Source of the DNA: Clostridiales bacterium
GTDB lineage: Bacteria; Bacillota; Clostridia; Peptostreptococcales; Acidaminobacteraceae
NCBI GenBank assembly: GCA_016933835.1
Contig: JAFGAC010000031.1
Span: 1 to 64,000, forward strand
Direction: 5' to 3'
DNA length: 64,000 nucleotides
Shown: positions 24,429 to 34,303 of the stretch, piece by piece
Layout: each line of letters begins with the position of its first letter
How positions within the stretch are numbered: the stretch's first letter is position 1
Position numbers and translations under genes: made by a program
Notes under the pieces: model-generated
Seen by the model: only the letters and a program-made list of their open reading frames with translations
Told to the model about the DNA's origin: nothing
Database searches by the model: none

Positions 24429-24840
24429 TTTCATCTTCACTCAAAACAATAATACTCTCACTTGTCAACAGCTCAGCAGTCCTACCCATGCCCTGAATTT
24501 TAATTCCTGAAAATGTGCCGTCATATACCATATGCACACCACACGATGGACTTTTTTCTTTCAAAATAGCATGAGTACAATTAAATATTTTCGCGATTTT
24601 CAATGTTTCAAGTGCACCTTTTTCATATTGTCCAGTAACATTTTCTCCAAATTCCGTTATCACTTCTTTTCCGACAATTTCAGATTTAGCTCTTGGCGTT
24701 TGCAGTCCACCCATTTGTTCTGGGCAGGCAATCACAAATTGTTTGTCTTTTAAAAAATTAATGATTTTTTCATTGTAGTTATTTTCACCATTGTATTTAC
24801 AGTTCATCCCCACTAGACAACTACTTACTAAATATTTCAT
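24415..24840 (-). CDS. DUF523 family protein
   Basis: 141 residues, full length for DUF523 (YbbK-like). Conserved cysteine blocks are visible: SSCLVG at 6-11 with C14, CPEQMGGL near 40-47, and KEKSPSCG near 93-100. The cysteine pattern suggests metal or Fe-S binding, but the biochemical role is not established. The ATG overlaps the mutS2 stop codon (ATGA), so it is the last gene of the U32-mutS2-DUF523 string. Confidence 0.88.
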   Translation of the reverse strand: MKYLVSSCLVGMNCKYNGENNYNEKIINFLKDKQFVIACPEQMGGLQTPRAKSEIVGKEVITEFGENVTGQYEKGALETLKIAKIFNCTHAILKEKSPSCGVHMVYDGTFSGIKIQGMGRTAELLTSESIIVLSEDEIDLE

Positions 24841-27197
24841 TTTAATTCCACAATTGTCACACCAATTCCACCTTCTCGATATTCACCATCTCTTTGAGAT
24901 TTAACATGTCTATTTGTTTTTAAATATTCTTTAATTCCTTTTCTTAAAACTCCTGTACCTTTTCCATGTATGATTTGCACTTTCTCAAGCCCCGCCATAA
25001 ATGCATCATCAATGTACTTATCAACCGTCATCCACGCTTCTTCGAAATCCATCCCTCTCAAATCAATTTCAGAATCGATTGAAATCCTTTTAGAAGAACT
25101 ATATGACTTTTCTATTCTTTCATCGTTTTTCTTCTTAGATTTACTGGATATGACATCGTTCAAATTGACTTTTACTTTCATAATCCCTGCCTGAACATAA
25201 AAATTTCCATCTTTATCAGATTTAGACAATACTTCACCATTAGAATCTAAACTCAATATTTTAACTTGATCTCCAACAGAAACACTTAATGGATGCTGAT
25301 GTTTTTCAGTTTCTCTATTTAATCCTAATTCAGAAACTCCGCTCATTTGGTTTTTTAGCTGGTTCCTCATCTGTTCAATTCTCTGATTGTCTTCTTTTTT
25401 GTTAACTTGCATACCTCTTAATTCTTTAATAATTTCCTCAGTTTCTTTTTTTGCATCAAGAAGCATCTTCTTCGCTTCTTCCTTCGCTTGCTTAAGCACT
25501 TTATTTCTTTGTTCTTCTAGTTTTTCGTTTTTTAAATCCCATTTTTCTTTAATTCTTTGGGATTCAATTTTGAGCTTTATAGCTTCATTTCTCTCATTTT
25601 CAGCTTCACTTAAATTTTTATTGATTTTATCCAATATATCTTCAAATTCAATATTGCTGTGGTCTACAAAATCTTTCGCTTTATTAATGACATCTTCTTT
25701 CAATCCAAGTTTTCTAGATATTTCAAAAGCATTGGATTTTCCTGGAATTCCTATAATCAGTCGATACGTAGGATTTAAGGTTTCTACATTAAATTCTACC
25801 GAGGCATTTTGAAACCCTTCTCTAGACAGTGCATAATGCTTCAGTTCACTGTAGTGAGTTGTAGACAATGTCATTGCCTTCTGTTCATTAAATCTTTGCA
25901 GCAGCGCCATGGCCAAAGCTGCACCTTCAATTGGATCTGTTCCCGCTCCCAATTCATCCAATAAAATTAAACTGTTATGATTCGCTTGATCAATCACTCT
26001 TACGATATTCGTCATATGTGATGAAAATGTACTTAAAGATTGTTCAATGCTCTGTTCATCTCCAATATCTGCATAGACATGATCAAAAACAGGCATCACT
26101 GTTCCATATTTAGCTGGAATATGAAATCCTGATTGAAACATCAATGCCAGTAGCCCGACAGTCTTAAGTGTAACAGTTTTTCCCCCAGTATTAGGTCCTG
26201 TTATAATAAGAGACTGATATCCTTTTCCAATCTCTATATCCAATGGAACTACCGTTTTTGGATCTAATAGTGGATGTCTTCCACCTTTAATTTTTATATA
26301 CTTCTCATCTGAAATTTTCGGAGAAATGCCATTGATTTGTATTGCATATTTTCCTTTTGCCAACAACACATCAATTTCAGTCAGAACATCGAAATTAACT
26401 CTAATGGCAGTTGCTTTTTCTCCTACATACCCAGTCAAGATTGCTAGAATTCTTTCAATTTCTTTTAGCTCGTCAATCTTCAATTGGCTTAGTTCATTGT
26501 TCAAATTTACAATTGCCATAGGTTCAATATACACTGTCGAGCCAGAAGCCGATTGATCATGTATCATTCCTTTTATATGCCCTTTATGCTCTGCTTTTAC
26601 TGGTATGACAAATCGATTGTTTCTTATTGTGACAATTGAATCCTGCAGATATTTTGTCATTTGCTGTGAACTTGTATATGATTCCAGTTTACTGCGAATG
26701 GAAGATTGCTTTCTCTCAATGTTTCTGCGAATATCTCTCAATTGCGGCGATGCATTGTCTGATATCTGTTCTTCACTGATGATTGCGTTGTTGATTTCAT
26801 CTTCGACTCTTTTAAGTGGTGTTAACTCAGATGCCATTTGAAAAATCCTTGGATATTTTATTTTTGAATCCTCAGAATTGACAATAAAATAATGAACATT
26901 TCTAGCTGTCCTCAAGCTGTCAGAAACCTGTAATAACTGTCTCGGATTAAGTATAGATCCTATTTCAGCCATTTTAACTTCCCTTCTAAGATCAAAAAGA
27001 GGTCCAAAAGGGAAGTTTGATTTTGACATCAAAAGCGAAGTGATTTCTGAAGTTAATTCTTGTAAAGTTTTTATTTCTTCAATATCAATAGAAGGCCTAA
27101 TGTTCAATATTTTCTCTTTTCCAAGAAAAGAAGATGCTAAACTCGCTATTTTATCAATAATTTTATTATATTCCAGTATTCTTAAATCTCTGTTCAA
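24837..27197 (-). CDS. mutS2: MutS2 family ATPase/endonuclease
   Basis: 786 residues. The MutS-type clamp and helical regions lead to a Walker A GPNTGGKT (about 335-342) and Walker B LLDELGAGTDP; a coiled-coil segment (about 510-620) follows, then a KOW-like linker (SVGDQVKIL) and a C-terminal Smr domain with DLRGMDFEEA and HGKGTG. In Bacillus, MutS2 splits collided ribosomes; in other bacteria it suppresses recombination. The start is TTG with AAGGAG eight bases upstream, overlapping the end of the U32 gene. It lacks the MutS mismatch-reading domain, as expected. Confidence 0.95.
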   Translation of the reverse strand: MNRDLRILEYNKIIDKIASLASSFLGKEKILNIRPSIDIEEIKTLQELTSEITSLLMSKSNFPFGPLFDLRREVKMAEIGSILNPRQLLQVSDSLRTARNVHYFIVNSEDSKIKYPRIFQMASELTPLKRVEDEINNAIISEEQISDNASPQLRDIRRNIERKQSSIRSKLESYTSSQQMTKYLQDSIVTIRNNRFVIPVKAEHKGHIKGMIHDQSASGSTVYIEPMAIVNLNNELSQLKIDELKEIERILAILTGYVGEKATAIRVNFDVLTEIDVLLAKGKYAIQINGISPKISDEKYIKIKGGRHPLLDPKTVVPLDIEIGKGYQSLIITGPNTGGKTVTLKTVGLLALMFQSGFHIPAKYGTVMPVFDHVYADIGDEQSIEQSLSTFSSHMTNIVRVIDQANHNSLILLDELGAGTDPIEGAALAMALLQRFNEQKAMTLSTTHYSELKHYALSREGFQNASVEFNVETLNPTYRLIIGIPGKSNAFEISRKLGLKEDVINKAKDFVDHSNIEFEDILDKINKNLSEAENERNEAIKLKIESQRIKEKWDLKNEKLEEQRNKVLKQAKEEAKKMLLDAKKETEEIIKELRGMQVNKKEDNQRIEQMRNQLKNQMSGVSELGLNRETEKHQHPLSVSVGDQVKILSLDSNGEVLSKSDKDGNFYVQAGIMKVKVNLNDVISSKSKKKNDERIEKSYSSSKRISIDSEIDLRGMDFEEAWMTVDKYIDDAFMAGLEKVQIIHGKGTGVLRKGIKEYLKTNRHVKSQRDGEYREGGIGVTIVELK

Positions 27198-29453
27198 TTA
27201 TAAAACTCCTTTGTTAAAATGACCTTTCGTTCCAAATCTATTGGAACGGCTTCCTTTAAAATCATCAATAACTGCTTGCGTCTCGCTGGCTGTCTCAATT
27301 GTAAATCTCAATCTTACATTTTTTATCTTCAAATCATCCACATATTGAATGATATTCAATGGTCTGTTGTTCATTATTTTCATTCTACAGCCATACGCTC
27401 TCATAAGTGGATAATCATTCCCAAGACGATCTTTTAAATGACTCCCTGTCAAAGTACAATTTCCACAGATATTGTTTGCTCTATAAATACAATAATCTGT
27501 AATCATCATTCTTTGGTATCCGTAAACAACCAATTCAATCGGCCCTTTAAGTTGATTCATTTGTGATTCATTCAATTCTTCTGAAATTGTAATCTTCTTT
27601 ACATCCATCGAGTTTAGAAAATCTATGCTGTACTGGTTAGTCACATTAAATGAAAAATCTGTCTCAATTGAATAAAAATCTTTAAAATAATTCAATTGAC
27701 CAATTGTTTTCACCATGATTTTATCAACTTTATCCATTGTTTTCAATATCTCATGTATAGAAACAAATTCACTGTCTTTTGAAATATCCGGCAATATTGG
27801 AATAATATTTTCACTTATCTCATATGCATCTAAAATTGTGTAAAAATCAGAATAATAAATATCTCCCTTTATCATTTCCTTGACAGTATTCAATTGCTCT
27901 ATTGTATTTACCTCATAACTTGTAATTCTTTCATCACGCATATTATAATCTGAAAATAGTGGCATTTCATTTTTTCCTATAATCTGATTCTCATATCTTT
28001 TATTTCTATTAATGTTCATCTGAGTTATCGCTTCTCTTCTCAATTCATTGAGGTCCGATTTTCTAATAAATATATTGCCATCTATTTTACATTCAAAGCT
28101 CTCTAGAAAATACACCGTATCTCCTAATTTACTCATTTGCTCTTTTATATCATCTGAAGAAAGTGCAACGCGCTTTGCCGGTTCAGCAAGGTTTTCTCTA
28201 AGCAATTCGATTTCAATATCCTGTGAAATAAAAGTTGCTTTTACCATGCCCTTCTCACTAGCAAAAAAATTTATTTTCAATGGAATCAGCTGCAAGTTCT
28301 TATTTAATATTTCATCAATCTTTTTGAATAAATCTGTATCATAGGTGAGATGTGCAATTTCACCTTTTTTAAATATCGATTTTGTAGTCATTTTATATCT
28401 GTTTTGACCAAGCACTCTTTCAACTCTTCCACCGACACTTTGATTTTGTCTAAATATTTTTATTTCATCTCCTTGATTCAACGCGACATCACTTAAAAGG
28501 GTCACTATATTGTCATTGAAATCAATAACTTCACCAACTATTTTTCCATGGTTTTCTGGAGAATGATAATTCATGAATTTGCTGTCTTTTTCACCAAATA
28601 TTCTTCCTTTTGTATATTCCCGATTAAATATCGTTTCAGAACTTATTTCAACTGGAAGGTTGTTCAATTTACTGTAATATTCATGTGCAGTCGCATATGC
28701 ATAATATTTATTTTTCATGCGGCCTTCAATTTTTAAACTCATTGCACCTAAAGATTTAAACTGCTCTAATTCATCCAAAGTTTTCATATCTTTTGGACTC
28801 AGAAGATATTCACCTTCAATTTCTTTTACTAATTCTCCGTCAGAATTGTATAATTCATAGGTCTGTCTGCACGGTTGAGCACATGCCCCTCTGTTTCCTG
28901 ATCTTCCTCCTATAATTGAACTCATCAGACACTGTCCAGAATACGAAATGCAATGAGCCCCATGGATGAATACTTCTGTATCTATACCTTCATCGACAAC
29001 TGCTTTTATTTCTTCCAACGAGTTTTCTCTTGCCAGGACAACACGTTTAACACCTGCATTTTTAGCAAATTTCGCACCTGACAAACTGTGAATACTCATT
29101 TGAGTACTTGCATGAATCTCCAAATCTTTAAAATTTTCTGAGCATAGTTTTAATAATCCTAAATCTTGTATAATGACACCATCAACATTAATGTTATTTA
29201 AAAATTTCAAATACGCAAAAACCTCATTGTATTCATCATTGAAGATAATTGTGTTGACTGTTACATAGATTTTTTTATCATAGAGATGCGCTTTTTCGAC
29301 AACAACTATCATTTCTTCTTCAGTGAAATTGCCTGCAAATTTTCTTGCTCCAAAATTCTTCCCTGAAAGGTAAAATGCATCTGCACCGCCTTTAAGAGCA
29401 GCATCCAATTTTTCCATCTCACCAGCAGGTGATAATAATTCCATTTTTTTCAT
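27198..29453 (-). CDS. U32 family peptidase-like protein (RlhA-type)
   Basis: 751 residues: a U32 domain (ELLSPAGEMEKLDAAL at 5-20; ALKGGADAFYLS), the cysteine cluster GNRGACAQPCR (about 181-191), a DUF3656-type middle region, and a second cysteine cluster near the C-terminus (CIYRANNICGNC, then YGCRM). Members are annotated as collagenase-like peptidases, but the E. coli relative RlhA hydroxylates 23S rRNA C2501 and needs these cysteines for an Fe-S cluster. An RNA-modification role is therefore at least as likely as proteolysis. A terminator hairpin (29473-29500) lies just upstream of its ribosome site. Confidence 0.88.
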   Translation of the reverse strand: MKKMELLSPAGEMEKLDAALKGGADAFYLSGKNFGARKFAGNFTEEEMIVVVEKAHLYDKKIYVTVNTIIFNDEYNEVFAYLKFLNNINVDGVIIQDLGLLKLCSENFKDLEIHASTQMSIHSLSGAKFAKNAGVKRVVLARENSLEEIKAVVDEGIDTEVFIHGAHCISYSGQCLMSSIIGGRSGNRGACAQPCRQTYELYNSDGELVKEIEGEYLLSPKDMKTLDELEQFKSLGAMSLKIEGRMKNKYYAYATAHEYYSKLNNLPVEISSETIFNREYTKGRIFGEKDSKFMNYHSPENHGKIVGEVIDFNDNIVTLLSDVALNQGDEIKIFRQNQSVGGRVERVLGQNRYKMTTKSIFKKGEIAHLTYDTDLFKKIDEILNKNLQLIPLKINFFASEKGMVKATFISQDIEIELLRENLAEPAKRVALSSDDIKEQMSKLGDTVYFLESFECKIDGNIFIRKSDLNELRREAITQMNINRNKRYENQIIGKNEMPLFSDYNMRDERITSYEVNTIEQLNTVKEMIKGDIYYSDFYTILDAYEISENIIPILPDISKDSEFVSIHEILKTMDKVDKIMVKTIGQLNYFKDFYSIETDFSFNVTNQYSIDFLNSMDVKKITISEELNESQMNQLKGPIELVVYGYQRMMITDYCIYRANNICGNCTLTGSHLKDRLGNDYPLMRAYGCRMKIMNNRPLNIIQYVDDLKIKNVRLRFTIETASETQAVIDDFKGSRSNRFGTKGHFNKGVL

Positions 29454-29517: not shown

Positions 29518-30849
29518 CTATTTATCAAATTCTTCAATAAATTCTTCTAGTTCTCTCACAGATCTTTGAAGTTCTTCTTCTTTATCTGTGAGCTTTCTTT
29601 GAAGATAAAATATTTTCTCATCTGATTGATTTAACATAGAATCTTTTATTTTAATTTTTTCTTCTAGTTCATTTAGACGTTCTAACAAAAATTCATCACT
29701 TTCAGTCTTTTCTTCATGTTTACTATTCAGCATATTGTTTTGAATTTCTTCTTCTTTTTCTATCAGTTTTCGCTGCAAGAAAAATATTTTCTCATCTGAT
29801 TGATTCAACAATTCTTCTTTTTCTGCAATTGTTTTATCAAACAAAAATCTGTTTTTTTCCATTTCTTTGCTCATATCTTCCTGCATTTTTCTTAAAGCAA
29901 TCTGATAATTCATTTCATAAGTATGAAACGCTTGATCTTTTTCTGCTATCATTTGATACAATTCAGATATTTTTTGATTTGAGATTTTGACAAGCTCTTT
30001 ATTTTTCCCATTTTCTTCTTCAAGTTCCATCACCGTCTTTTTCATATTATCGATGTCTTCTTGTTGAAGATCTAAATCAAAAAAGCTCTGTTGTTCTTGA
30101 AGAATATGTTGAAATTCTTCTTCTTTTTCATTCAATTTTTTCTGAAGAGAAAAAATCTTTTCATCTGAAGCGTTCAACAATTCTTCTTTTATTTTGGCCT
30201 TCTCACTAAGTTCATTTATCTTTTTATCAAACTCTTCAAGCAAATCTTCATTTGCTTTTTCCAAAGAAATATGGTGAATTTTTTTTATTTGTTTTAATTC
30301 TTCTTCTTTTTCATCAAGTTCAATTTGAAGAATAGCAATTTTATCTTTTAATGTTTGAAGCAATTTCTCATTTTCATTTAAATTTTCATCAGATTGTGCC
30401 AATAATTTTTGCATTTTTTCAATTTGTTCTTTTTTTAAGTTATCTGCTTCAAAAAAAGAATACTGCTCTGCTTTCTTAATCTTTAATTCCTCTTCTTTTG
30501 CCATCAACTCTCTTTGAATCAAAAAAATCTTATTTTCCAAATCATTAAAAGTCGTTTTATAAGCTTCAATTTCATCTTGCAAGCTTTTCACTTTATTTTC
30601 CATCATTTGATTCAATTTTCTATCTTTTTCGCTATCATCATTAAGTTTAAACTTAATAAGATCATTGGCAATATTCATAGCTGCCAATACTGAAATCATA
30701 GATGGTGTGTATTTATTTGATTTTTTTTTGAGAATTCGAATTTGTCGGTCAACCATTTCTGTGACTTTTAGTATGTGCATTTCTTCTTCATCAGAAATAA
30801 CATTGTAGGTAACCCCATCTATTATTACACTGATTCTATTTCTTTCCAT
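29518..30849 (-). CDS. zapA: ZapA-like protein with a long repeat-built coiled coil
   Basis: 443 residues. The first ~100 match ZapA, the FtsZ-ring cross-linker (RISVIIDGVTYNV, then EEMHILKVTEMVDRQI, then MISVLAAMNIANDLI). Ordinary ZapA is only about 85-140 residues. The remaining ~340 are predicted coiled coil made of six diverged copies of DEKIFxLQRKLxEKEEE at about 105, 168, 229, 291, 352 and 410, spaced 58-63 residues. Longer modules recur every ~122-124 (EQYSFFEADNLKKEQI at 128; EQQSFFDLDLQQEDI at 252). The location after pheST and before U32-mutS2 is the usual clostridial zapA position. Probable role: a midcell scaffold of unusual reach. Confidence 0.82.
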   Translation of the reverse strand: MERNRISVIIDGVTYNVISDEEEMHILKVTEMVDRQIRILKKKSNKYTPSMISVLAAMNIANDLIKFKLNDDSEKDRKLNQMMENKVKSLQDEIEAYKTTFNDLENKIFLIQRELMAKEEELKIKKAEQYSFFEADNLKKEQIEKMQKLLAQSDENLNENEKLLQTLKDKIAILQIELDEKEEELKQIKKIHHISLEKANEDLLEEFDKKINELSEKAKIKEELLNASDEKIFSLQKKLNEKEEEFQHILQEQQSFFDLDLQQEDIDNMKKTVMELEEENGKNKELVKISNQKISELYQMIAEKDQAFHTYEMNYQIALRKMQEDMSKEMEKNRFLFDKTIAEKEELLNQSDEKIFFLQRKLIEKEEEIQNNMLNSKHEEKTESDEFLLERLNELEEKIKIKDSMLNQSDEKIFYLQRKLTDKEEELQRSVRELEEFIEEFDK

Positions 30850-30870
30850 TGACAGACACTCCCTTATATC

Positions 30871-33267
30871 TTATCTACGTATTGCATCAAGCGTCTCTTC
30901 TAAAACTCTTAAAATTTTATCATATGGTTTTTGTACTTCTTCATCGGTCAAAGTTTTTTCATCCGATCTAAAAGTCATTGAATAAGCCATACTCTTATAT
31001 CCCTGTTTTATCTGGACACCTCTATAAATATCAAACAATTTAACATCTACAAGATTTTTACCACCATTTTTTAATATCAAATCAACTATTTCTGAATGTG
31101 TCGTTTCATCTTTTACTAAAATAGCAATGTCTCTTTGAATTGAAGGATATTTTGGTACCGGTTCGTAAAGTTTTGCTAGATTAGAATTTTCAGCAATTTT
31201 TTCAAAGTCAATTTCCGCAGCAATAACACGACTTGAAATTCCAAAATTTTTCATAACATCAGGATGGATCTCCCCAATTATGCCAAACAATGTTTCATCA
31301 ACAATAATTTTAGCTAATCGTCCTGGATGATATGTCAATATATCATTTATTTTTTCGAACTTTACATTTTTTATGCCTAGGACTTCAAATAATAATTCCA
31401 CAAAGGATTTAATTTTGAAGAAATCCACTTTCTTGCCATAGGCACCAATGCATATCGATTTTCTTTCATCAGGCAAGTCAACAACCGGAATCGATTTTGC
31501 AATAAATGTATTACCCAGTTCAAATGCCATCATTTCGCTGTTGCCGTTATTCTGGTTTCTAGTTAGAACTTCCATCATATTAGGTAGCAAAGTAGTTCTC
31601 ATTACACTGTATTCTTCACCTAATGGATTAATCAAGCGAACGAACTGATTTAAAGATGTATCATCACTTCTGTTTATTTTATCTATAGCCGTCGGTGAGA
31701 CAAAAGAATATGTCGAAATTTCATATAGACCTTGTGAAACAAGTGTACTCTTAACTGTGTTCTCGATCTTTTGTCTATAGTTGTACTCTCCAAATTCTAC
31801 ACCGCCCGGCAAAGTAACTGGTATATTATCATAGCCGTACATACGTGCAACTTCTTCAATCATATCAATTTCCTTAAGGACATCCATTCTGAAAGATGGC
31901 ACCTGAATTTTCAAATGATTATCATCCAAAGATAACACTTTAAATTCGAGACTTTCAAGCATTTCTTTCATTTTTGAAGTCGACAAATCAATTCCCAAGA
32001 TTCTTTTCACTTCTTGTGTCGTCAATATAACAATATCTTCTTCTTTTCTAGTTGGATAAATATCAATCATTCCATCCACTATCTCGCCCACATTCAACTG
32101 TGCATATAATTCTAATAATCTATTTACTGCTTTTCCTACACGGTTGATGTCGATTCCTTTTTCAAATCTTGCAGATGCCTCAGTTCTTAAACCCAGGTGT
32201 TTAGAAGTCATTCTTATTGCTGTTTTATTAAAATTTGCAACTTCAACAAATATATTTTTTGTATTTTCAGTAATTTCTGTATTTTCGCCGCCCATGACAC
32301 CTGCAATACCTATTGCTTTATGAGCGCTTGCAATTACAAGATCATCATTTTTTAGAATTCTTTCAACTGAATCAAGAGTTGTCATTTTCTCACCATCAAA
32401 AGCTCTTCTGACAATAATTTTCTTGTCATCAACCAAATCAAGATCAAATGGATGAATCGGTTGACCTGTCTCGAGCATAACATAATTGGTGATATCTACA
32501 ATATTATTGATAGGTCTGACTCCAGCAAGCATCAATCTTACTTGCATCCACTGAGGAGAAGGTTTGATTTGCACATTATTGATGACAAATCCAGAATATC
32601 GAGGACATAAATCTGAATCTTGGACCTCAACGTCAAAATATTTTTTTACATTTTTTTCTTCGAAAATATTTTGATCCGATAATTTCTTTCTCTCTCTTTT
32701 AAATGTCGCCTGTGTCTCTCTTGCCATTCCTTCTATTGACAAACAATCAGGACGATTGGGAGTTATTTCAAACTCAATTACATTATCCCCAATATCCACT
32801 ACATCAAATAATGGTGTTCCAAGCTCATATTCTCCTTGAAGAATATAAATACCATCATCGAATATTTTAGGAATGACGCTTTTTTCAAATCCAAGTTCAT
32901 CAAGTGAACACAACATACCATTTGACACTTGTCCTCTCAATTTTCCTTTTTTGATTTTAAGCCCATTCGCAAGATTTGCCCCAACCTTCGCTACCGGTAC
33001 ATAATCACCAACTTTCACATTTTTAGCGCCAGTGACAATCTGTGTAATTTCTTCACCCAAATCGATTTGTAGAACAAATAATTTATCAGCATCTTCATGT
33101 TTCACTTGTTCAATAACCTTGCCAATAACAATATCCGTATTGTTTTTCGAAAAATCTTTAACACCTTCTGTATTTGAACCCGACATGATTAGACGGTCTT
33201 CTAAAAATTTAATATCGATATCATCTATTTTCACATGTTCATTAAGCCATTTAACAGGTACTTTCAT
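30871..33267 (-). CDS. pheT: phenylalanyl-tRNA synthetase beta subunit
   Basis: 798 residues, the normal size. The domains run in order: N-terminal tRNA-binding OB fold (about 40-150, VIGKVIEQVKHEDADKL), B3/B4 editing region, B5, the catalytic-like core and the C-terminal anticodon-binding FDX-ACB domain (FDIYRGVQIKQGYKS). Acts as (alpha-beta)2 with PheS and edits Tyr-tRNA-Phe. It follows pheS by 16 bases with AAGGAGGG before the ATG. Confidence 0.97.
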   Translation of the reverse strand: MKVPVKWLNEHVKIDDIDIKFLEDRLIMSGSNTEGVKDFSKNNTDIVIGKVIEQVKHEDADKLFVLQIDLGEEITQIVTGAKNVKVGDYVPVAKVGANLANGLKIKKGKLRGQVSNGMLCSLDELGFEKSVIPKIFDDGIYILQGEYELGTPLFDVVDIGDNVIEFEITPNRPDCLSIEGMARETQATFKRERKKLSDQNIFEEKNVKKYFDVEVQDSDLCPRYSGFVINNVQIKPSPQWMQVRLMLAGVRPINNIVDITNYVMLETGQPIHPFDLDLVDDKKIIVRRAFDGEKMTTLDSVERILKNDDLVIASAHKAIGIAGVMGGENTEITENTKNIFVEVANFNKTAIRMTSKHLGLRTEASARFEKGIDINRVGKAVNRLLELYAQLNVGEIVDGMIDIYPTRKEEDIVILTTQEVKRILGIDLSTSKMKEMLESLEFKVLSLDDNHLKIQVPSFRMDVLKEIDMIEEVARMYGYDNIPVTLPGGVEFGEYNYRQKIENTVKSTLVSQGLYEISTYSFVSPTAIDKINRSDDTSLNQFVRLINPLGEEYSVMRTTLLPNMMEVLTRNQNNGNSEMMAFELGNTFIAKSIPVVDLPDERKSICIGAYGKKVDFFKIKSFVELLFEVLGIKNVKFEKINDILTYHPGRLAKIIVDETLFGIIGEIHPDVMKNFGISSRVIAAEIDFEKIAENSNLAKLYEPVPKYPSIQRDIAILVKDETTHSEIVDLILKNGGKNLVDVKLFDIYRGVQIKQGYKSMAYSMTFRSDEKTLTDEEVQKPYDKILRVLEETLDAIRR

Positions 33268-33283: not shown

Positions 33284-34303
33284 CTAAAATTGTTTTATAA
33301 ATCTGATGTCATTATCAAAGAAAAGTCTGATATCATCTATTTCATACTTTAACATTGTAATTCTATCCAAACCCATTCCAAAAGCGAATCCTGAATATTT
33401 TTTTGAATCAATATCACATTCTTCAAGTACATTTGGATGTACCATGCCACATCCCAAAATCTCTATCCATCCTGTATTTGAACAGAATTTACACCCTTCT
33501 CCGCCACATTTAAAACAACTGACATCTACTTCTGCACTCGGCTCAGTAAACGGAAAATAATGAGGTCTGAATTTTGTTTTCGTATTTTCTCCAAACAATC
33601 TTTTTGCGAAGAGATCTAAAGTGCCTTTCAAATCGGCCATTGTAATATCCTTATCAACAACCAGCCCTTCAATTTGATGAAACATTGGCGAATGTGTAGC
33701 ATCCAATTCATCATATCTGAAACATCTTCCCGGAGAAATAACTTTAATCGGAGGATCATTTGCCTTCATTGTTCGGACTTGTACTGGAGAAGTTTGCGTT
33801 CTAAGCAACAATTCTTCATTAATATAAAATGTGTCTGACAAACTTCTTGAAGGATGATCTTTAGGTGAATTCAAGGCATCAAAATTATTATAAACCGTAT
33901 CTATTTCAGGTCCTTCCGCAATTTTGTAGCCCATTCCAATAAATATATCCTTTATTTCATCTAAAACTACATTTAGTGGATGTTTATGGCCTCTGTTTAT
34001 ATCCGCACTAGGCAAAGTAACATCAATATCTTCTTTCATCAACTGATGTTTCAATTCAACCGCTCTAATTTTTTCTTTGACTATATCAATATGAGTCTCT
34101 ATTTTTTCTCTTGTTTCATTGGCGATTTTACCCATCAAAGGTCTCTCTTCATCGGTAATTTTACCCATTCCTTTGAGAATTTCCTTTAATTCACCCTTTT
34201 TACCTAAATATTTAACTCTGAATTCATCTAACTGTTCACTTGTTATAATGTTTTTTATTTCATTTTCTGCATTTTTAAGTATCAACTGCAACTTATCTTT
34301 CAT
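33284..34303 (-). CDS. pheS: phenylalanyl-tRNA synthetase alpha subunit
   Basis: Class II catalytic subunit that charges tRNA-Phe. 339 residues with an N-terminal coiled-coil tRNA-contact arm (1-90), the class-II motif 2 region (GRCFRYDELDATHSPMFHQ), the FKCGGEGCKFC insertion with four cysteines (probable zinc site), and motif 3 GFAFGMGLDR. The start has GAAAGGGG upstream and is controlled by the T-box at 34325-34552. Confidence 0.97.
   Translation of the reverse strand: MKDKLQLILKNAENEIKNIITSEQLDEFRVKYLGKKGELKEILKGMGKITDEERPLMGKIANETREKIETHIDIVKEKIRAVELKHQLMKEDIDVTLPSADINRGHKHPLNVVLDEIKDIFIGMGYKIAEGPEIDTVYNNFDALNSPKDHPSRSLSDTFYINEELLLRTQTSPVQVRTMKANDPPIKVISPGRCFRYDELDATHSPMFHQIEGLVVDKDITMADLKGTLDLFAKRLFGENTKTKFRPHYFPFTEPSAEVDVSCFKCGGEGCKFCSNTGWIEILGCGMVHPNVLEECDIDSKKYSGFAFGMGLDRITMLKYEIDDIRLFFDNDIRFIKQF

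Follow-up and report, generated by a model that had tools for sequence, protein, structure and literature searches.

The spacing and cross-linking of filaments in the Z-ring are still debated, and ZapA is among the best-understood cross-linkers. A further Z-ring coiled coil, ZapB (PF06005), has been described in E. coli and other gammaproteobacteria. The ZapA proteins of E. coli, Klebsiella and Pseudomonas (PDB 4P1M, 9ISJ/9ISK, 1W2E) consist of a beta-beta-alpha-alpha head that continues into a coiled coil, with a chain length of 109 residues in Klebsiella. Klebsiella FtsZ hooks ZapA via Phe2, and a conserved Phe at position 4 of Gram-positive FtsZ has been likened to this hook (PMC12216130). 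In E. coli, ZapA that forms dimers only cannot support the role of ZapA (PMC7246612), and in C. difficile, which has no ftsA, zapA is essential (PMC12548448).

The protein described here (443 aa) shares with these ZapAs the head, the coiled coil and the presence as a single copy; the conserved Asn of the AALNI/AAMNI motif and Gly12 are common to both. It differs in a coil of approximately 370 residues, in six repeats of approximately 61 residues and in an added conserved C-terminal module. Several residues that contact FtsZ in Klebsiella also differ in its head, e.g. Arg16, which is replaced by Asn16 (visual alignment). The gene is located in a stretch of 64,000 nucleotides, hereafter the window, from a Clostridiales bacterium (Acidaminobacteraceae; GCA_016933835.1, contig JAFGAC010000031.1, positions 1 to 64,000, forward strand), where it lies on the minus strand, flanked by pheT and a U32-peptidase gene. 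The order pheS-pheT-zapA-U32-mutS2 is common in Firmicutes, and pheT is the canonical neighbor of zapA. This syntenic locus (pheT to mutS2) is present in the window with the following features:

24837..27197, minus strand: mutS2 (ORF recognized by sequence, without profile search)
27198..29453, minus strand: U32 peptidase / DUF3656 gene, downstream of zapA (ORF, Pfam)
29518..30849, minus strand: zapA, head and expanded coil, 443 aa, ATG start (ORF list, Pfam)
29521..29628, minus strand: unit 6, residues 408-443, the conserved module at the C-terminus (ortholog of the one copy in genus g20)
29629..29802, minus strand: repeat unit 5, residues 350-407 (self-alignment, unit comparison)
29803..29985, minus strand: repeat unit 4, degenerate, residues 289-349 (self-alignment, unit comparison)
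29986..30171, minus strand: repeat unit 3, residues 227-288 (self-alignment, unit comparison)
30172..30354, minus strand: repeat unit 2, residues 166-226 (self-alignment, unit comparison)
30355..30543, minus strand: repeat unit 1, residues 103-165 (self-alignment, unit comparison)
30568..30849, minus strand: ZapA head, residues 1-94, beta-beta-alpha-alpha and start of the coil (PF05164, predicted secondary structure)
30859..30865, minus strand: Shine-Dalgarno sequence AAGGGAG, 9 nt before the zapA ATG (read off the sequence)
30871..33267, minus strand: pheT, 21 nt upstream of zapA (ORF, Pfam)
33284..34303, minus strand: pheS (ORF recognized by sequence, without profile search)

Residues 6-94 matched PF05164 with 44.8 bits (E = 1.6e-11, cut-off 23.8), covering the whole profile (positions 1-88). 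The window head and its relatives were combined into a profile, which matched the PDB entries 2mmv (E = 1.2e-19), 1t3u (E = 1.6e-12) and 4p1m (E = 2e-5) as well as the ZapA structures 1w2e and 9isj/9isk. When the model of a sister protein from the related genus g3 was submitted to Foldseek, the top eight matches were all ZapA chains, at a best E-value of only 1.4e-3. The head of the window protein is 58% identical to that of g3. The cut-off of NCBIfam PRK14126, an 87-position model for the equivalog of short ZapA, was not reached (39.2 versus 80 bits), indicating a divergent ZapA whose membership in the wider family stands. An AlphaFold2 model calculated from a three-sequence alignment (pLDDT 67.9, head 41-67) contained strands at residues 5-10 and 13-18, helices at 22-43 and 49-68, and further helices to the end; the ZapA order of beta-beta-alpha-alpha and coiled coil is thus present, at low confidence for the head. 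A genome-wide profile search detected a single ZapA in the organism (49.5 bits), so that the 443-aa protein should carry the ZapA role. Matches to ATG16, SMC, ERM and HxlR were discarded as noise from the coiled coil, and a search for defense systems gave no match. The PDB entry 3HNW, an "uncharacterized protein" with an extra coiled coil, matched the clostridial ZapA-head profile (E = 1.9e-11) and appears to be an extended ZapA without annotation.

The six units start at residues 103, 166, 227, 289, 350 and 408, corresponding to spacings of 63, 61, 62, 61 and 58 residues. Longer blocks recur at residues 128 and 252 (EQYSFFEAD and EQQSFFDLD) and at residues 192 and 314 (HHISLEKANEDL and NYQIALRKMQEDM). 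The best ungapped self-alignment was obtained at an offset of 123 (residues 137-248 versus 260-371) with a BLOSUM62 score of 185; full shuffling reached at most 96 and shuffling with the hydrophobic pattern kept at most 124 (200 shuffles each), the latter being the relevant null because full shuffling is a weak one for coiled coils. In a further run of this test, the signal of the window protein was z = 8.5. Identities between units range from 16 to 56%, with the degenerate unit 4 (NQKISELYQMIAEKDQA) at 16-30% to the others. Tandem Repeats Finder detected no repeat in the DNA, as the copies are too diverged, which argues for an old duplication and against an assembly artefact.

In 37 of 41 genomes of the same family, a ZapA match was found at E ≤ 0.001, most frames comprising 180-220 aa. 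A repeat signal far above the null was observed in exactly three of approximately 60 ZapAs extracted from the family and order, namely the window protein and those of two g3 species (Eubacteriales MAGs CSMAG_142 and CSMAG_129, 309 and 313 aa; z = 11.1 and 13.8). The g3 proteins have the same NEKIFYLQRKLTDKEEELQN repeat core and the same C-terminal end as the window protein and are encoded at the same locus with the same gene order, but they contain four copies of a 55-57-aa unit in a continuous predicted helix, compared with six units of approximately 61 aa. The head of the window protein thus matches a ZapA profile and its periodicity is kept in a related genus; the original prediction of a ZapA-like protein with a tandem repeat of approximately 61 residues, unit spacings and blocks included, was borne out.

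The ZapAs of genus g20 (191 and 210 aa as extracted, with approximate starts) contain one copy of the unit, at the C-terminus, which is 61-67% identical to unit 6 of the window protein; between the terminal unit of the latter and those of g3 and g20, the identity is 61-69%. Apart from unit 4, no internal unit of the window protein resembles another internal unit more closely than it resembles its best-matching terminal module. A related motif, LQxKL...ELxxFIxxFD, ends ZapAs across the order, and a C-terminal profile trained on 25 members of the order, with genera g1, g3 and g20 left out, retrieved the C-terminal end of the window protein with 22.5 bits (shuffle maximum 13.5). Clostridial ZapAs with a C-terminal extension (approximately 155-230 aa in the order; 3HNW as the structure with an extended head) have head, coil and module in common with the window protein, and the short ZapAs of the order are found, where checked, in the same pheT / U32 peptidase neighborhood; they differ in having one copy of the module versus six and a coil of about one third of the length. 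Because g3 has four copies and g20 a single C-terminal one, the repeat unit most likely derives from the C-terminal module conserved in clostridial ZapA, by inward tandem copying together with a spacer, a history read from similarity and not from a resolved tree. The profile trained on the order gave no significant match to the tails of long ZapAs from another clostridial family (f45), and a universal clostridial tail module is therefore not claimed; the module is firm across the order and, on the separate evidence of an alignment, among several f45 members. In several genomes of the same family as the window organism (G005-G012), ZapA matches were very weak or absent and the frames short (136-176 aa), which suggests a divergent or reduced ZapA lineage.

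Residues 96-443 are devoid of proline, and a helix of approximately 370 residues is predicted. The model of the window protein shows helix breaks near residues 135-139, 257-263 and 377-383, i.e. every ~122 residues. The first two of these breaks fall at the EQxSFFxxD blocks. A conserved hinge in each 122-aa super-repeat was considered and rejected, since the g3 model, at a higher confidence of 82.4, forms one unbroken helix (residues 76-312). The long helical coil of the original prediction is thus found in both models; given the low confidence of the window model and its three breaks, which are absent from the sister, the coil cannot be taken as a straight and rigid rod. The rise of a coiled coil is 0.1485 nm per residue. 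At this value, the 369-residue coil of the window protein would measure up to ~55 nm if straight, and the corresponding lengths would be ~35 nm for g3 and ~17 nm for a 187-aa ZapA.

FtsZ of the window organism (L071, 1333-2463) comprises 376 aa and starts with MIEF, placing a Phe at position 4. It ends in a short, very acidic stretch, SLDLDLDLGSLDEDDDQDLDRPPFLIRR. SepF is present. Of three matches to the FtsA family, two were MreB-like and the third PilM-like by inspection; as no true FtsA was seen in the draft genome, SepF is the likely anchor. No ZapB was found at E ≤ 0.001 in the genome (94.95% complete), and PF06005 gave no match to the 443-aa protein at E ≤ 0.1; the absence of FtsA and ZapB is provisional because the genomes are drafts. 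The coil has no detectable sequence relation to ZapB, and any likeness is by functional analogy only. The suggestion that the window protein merges ZapA with a ZapB-like role thus received no positive evidence and was dropped, and the ZapA head, the duplication, the coil and its conservation were retained from the original prediction.

Long ZapAs were also found in a survey of 293 sampled genomes of the class. Among the best-scoring matches listed, the window protein is the longest ZapA in its order and is surpassed in its class; L073 (649 aa), L074 (538 aa), L075 (336 aa), L076 (316 aa) and L077 (534 aa) likewise combine a head with a very long coil but lack the LQRKL repeat. Internal periods were 42 aa for L073 (z = 5.5), 21 aa for L076 (z = 9.0) and 18 aa for L077 (z = 8.7), and the self-match test detected none in L074 and L075. 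As periods differ or are missing, lengthening is recurrent and occurred more than once. As in the window, the two f45 genes (L073, 2201-4150; L074, 1646-3262) are followed by a U32 peptidase gene, confirmed by Pfam for L073; the tails of their products are only 31% identical. L077 (1904-3511) is a second ZapA in a genome that also has one in a frame of ~150 aa, and its neighbors are non-canonical by eye (small heat-shock protein-like and nitroreductase-like); it is either a paralogue or contamination. Neither the independent long ZapAs nor the C-terminal module as the source of the unit had been part of the original prediction. A search of the open-licence literature found no description of a repeat-expanded ZapA, a weak argument for novelty. 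In those papers, the expansion by repeats, its derivation from the C-terminal module and its recurrence appear undescribed; ZapA itself is well known, and moderately extended clostridial ZapAs are common.

We give about an even chance to the reading that the window protein is a working ZapA in which the rod separates the FtsZ-binding heads from the conserved tail, yielding a spaced filament cross-linker; a putative role as an FtsZ-linked scaffold, as originally predicted, is plausible. The protein would have three parts: the head (residues 1-94), which would bind FtsZ, a rod lengthened by five internal copies and the C-terminal module (residues 408-443). Oligomeric state, FtsZ binding and the effect on spacing are what we infer: head dimers would bind FtsZ filaments at the FtsZ N-terminal tail and at subunit junctions, as in E. 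coli and Klebsiella ZapA, the coils would pair in parallel inside the dimer, and contacts of the coil and/or the tail would link this dimer to another. If the window protein cross-links like other ZapAs, it would thereby hold FtsZ filaments further apart, tens of nanometers from one another.

A serious rival, and one we consider quite possible, is passive drift in length, in which clostridial ZapA accepts a coil of nearly any length and slippage and duplication extended that of an ordinary ZapA bundler without a selected change in function. Between the two g3 species the coil indeed changes fastest (73% identity, versus 96% for the head, 92% for the C-terminal 36 residues and 92% for PheT). 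ZapA lengths vary widely, several lineages were lengthened independently with unrelated periods, and one copy suffices in the nearby genus g20. Against drift, the repeats are kept in both g3 species with identities that depend on position (U1 81%, U2 60%, U3 65%, terminal unit 92%), the dN/dS of the coil is 0.11, an approximate value as dS is near saturation, and reading frame and helicity are retained over ~370 residues. Judged by these identities and rates, both ends are held and the middle is drifting under purifying selection in the g3 pair.

The protein might also be a reaching adaptor, with heads on FtsZ and the module at the far end bound to another partner (membrane, nucleoid or cell-wall machinery), so that one protein would do the job of ZapA, ZapB and MatP in E. 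coli. We consider this unlikely: short and long ZapAs of the order alike keep the module at their far end and the genome gave no ZapB match, but no partner is known, the coil has no likeness to ZapB in sequence, and capping of the coil or assembly of the tetramer would be equally good roles for the module. That the protein is no functional ZapA, but either a coiled-coil protein whose head matches by chance or a product of faulty assembly, is highly improbable, because its Pfam scores (44.8 and 49.5 bits), low compared with 60-85 bits for many family members, and the spurious ATG16 and SMC matches typical of coiled coils are outweighed by a score well above the curated cut-off, the canonical locus, the similarity to the g3 head, the same architecture in two independently assembled species and the divergence of the copies.

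Beyond the spaced cross-linker favored for the window protein, clostridial ZapA in general may act as an adjustable ruler, in which a coil of readily evolving length holds the FtsZ-binding heads and the tail module apart; we regard this wider proposal as rather doubtful. Total ZapA length ranged from about 110 to 650 residues among the species sampled. If the proposal is true, species would differ several-fold in the spacing between filaments or in how far the Z-ring reaches into the cytoplasm, and repeat number would set this genetically. The repeat in the sister species and the other lengthenings in unrelated relatives suggest that division-ring spacing may be adjustable. Clostridia are a good setting for such work, as C. 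difficile has no ftsA and cannot grow without zapA (PMC12548448). ZapAs that have the same head and coils from short to >500 residues form a natural series, ready for questions of cross-linker length, and this series bears on how that length relates to filament spacing, the order of treadmilling and division.
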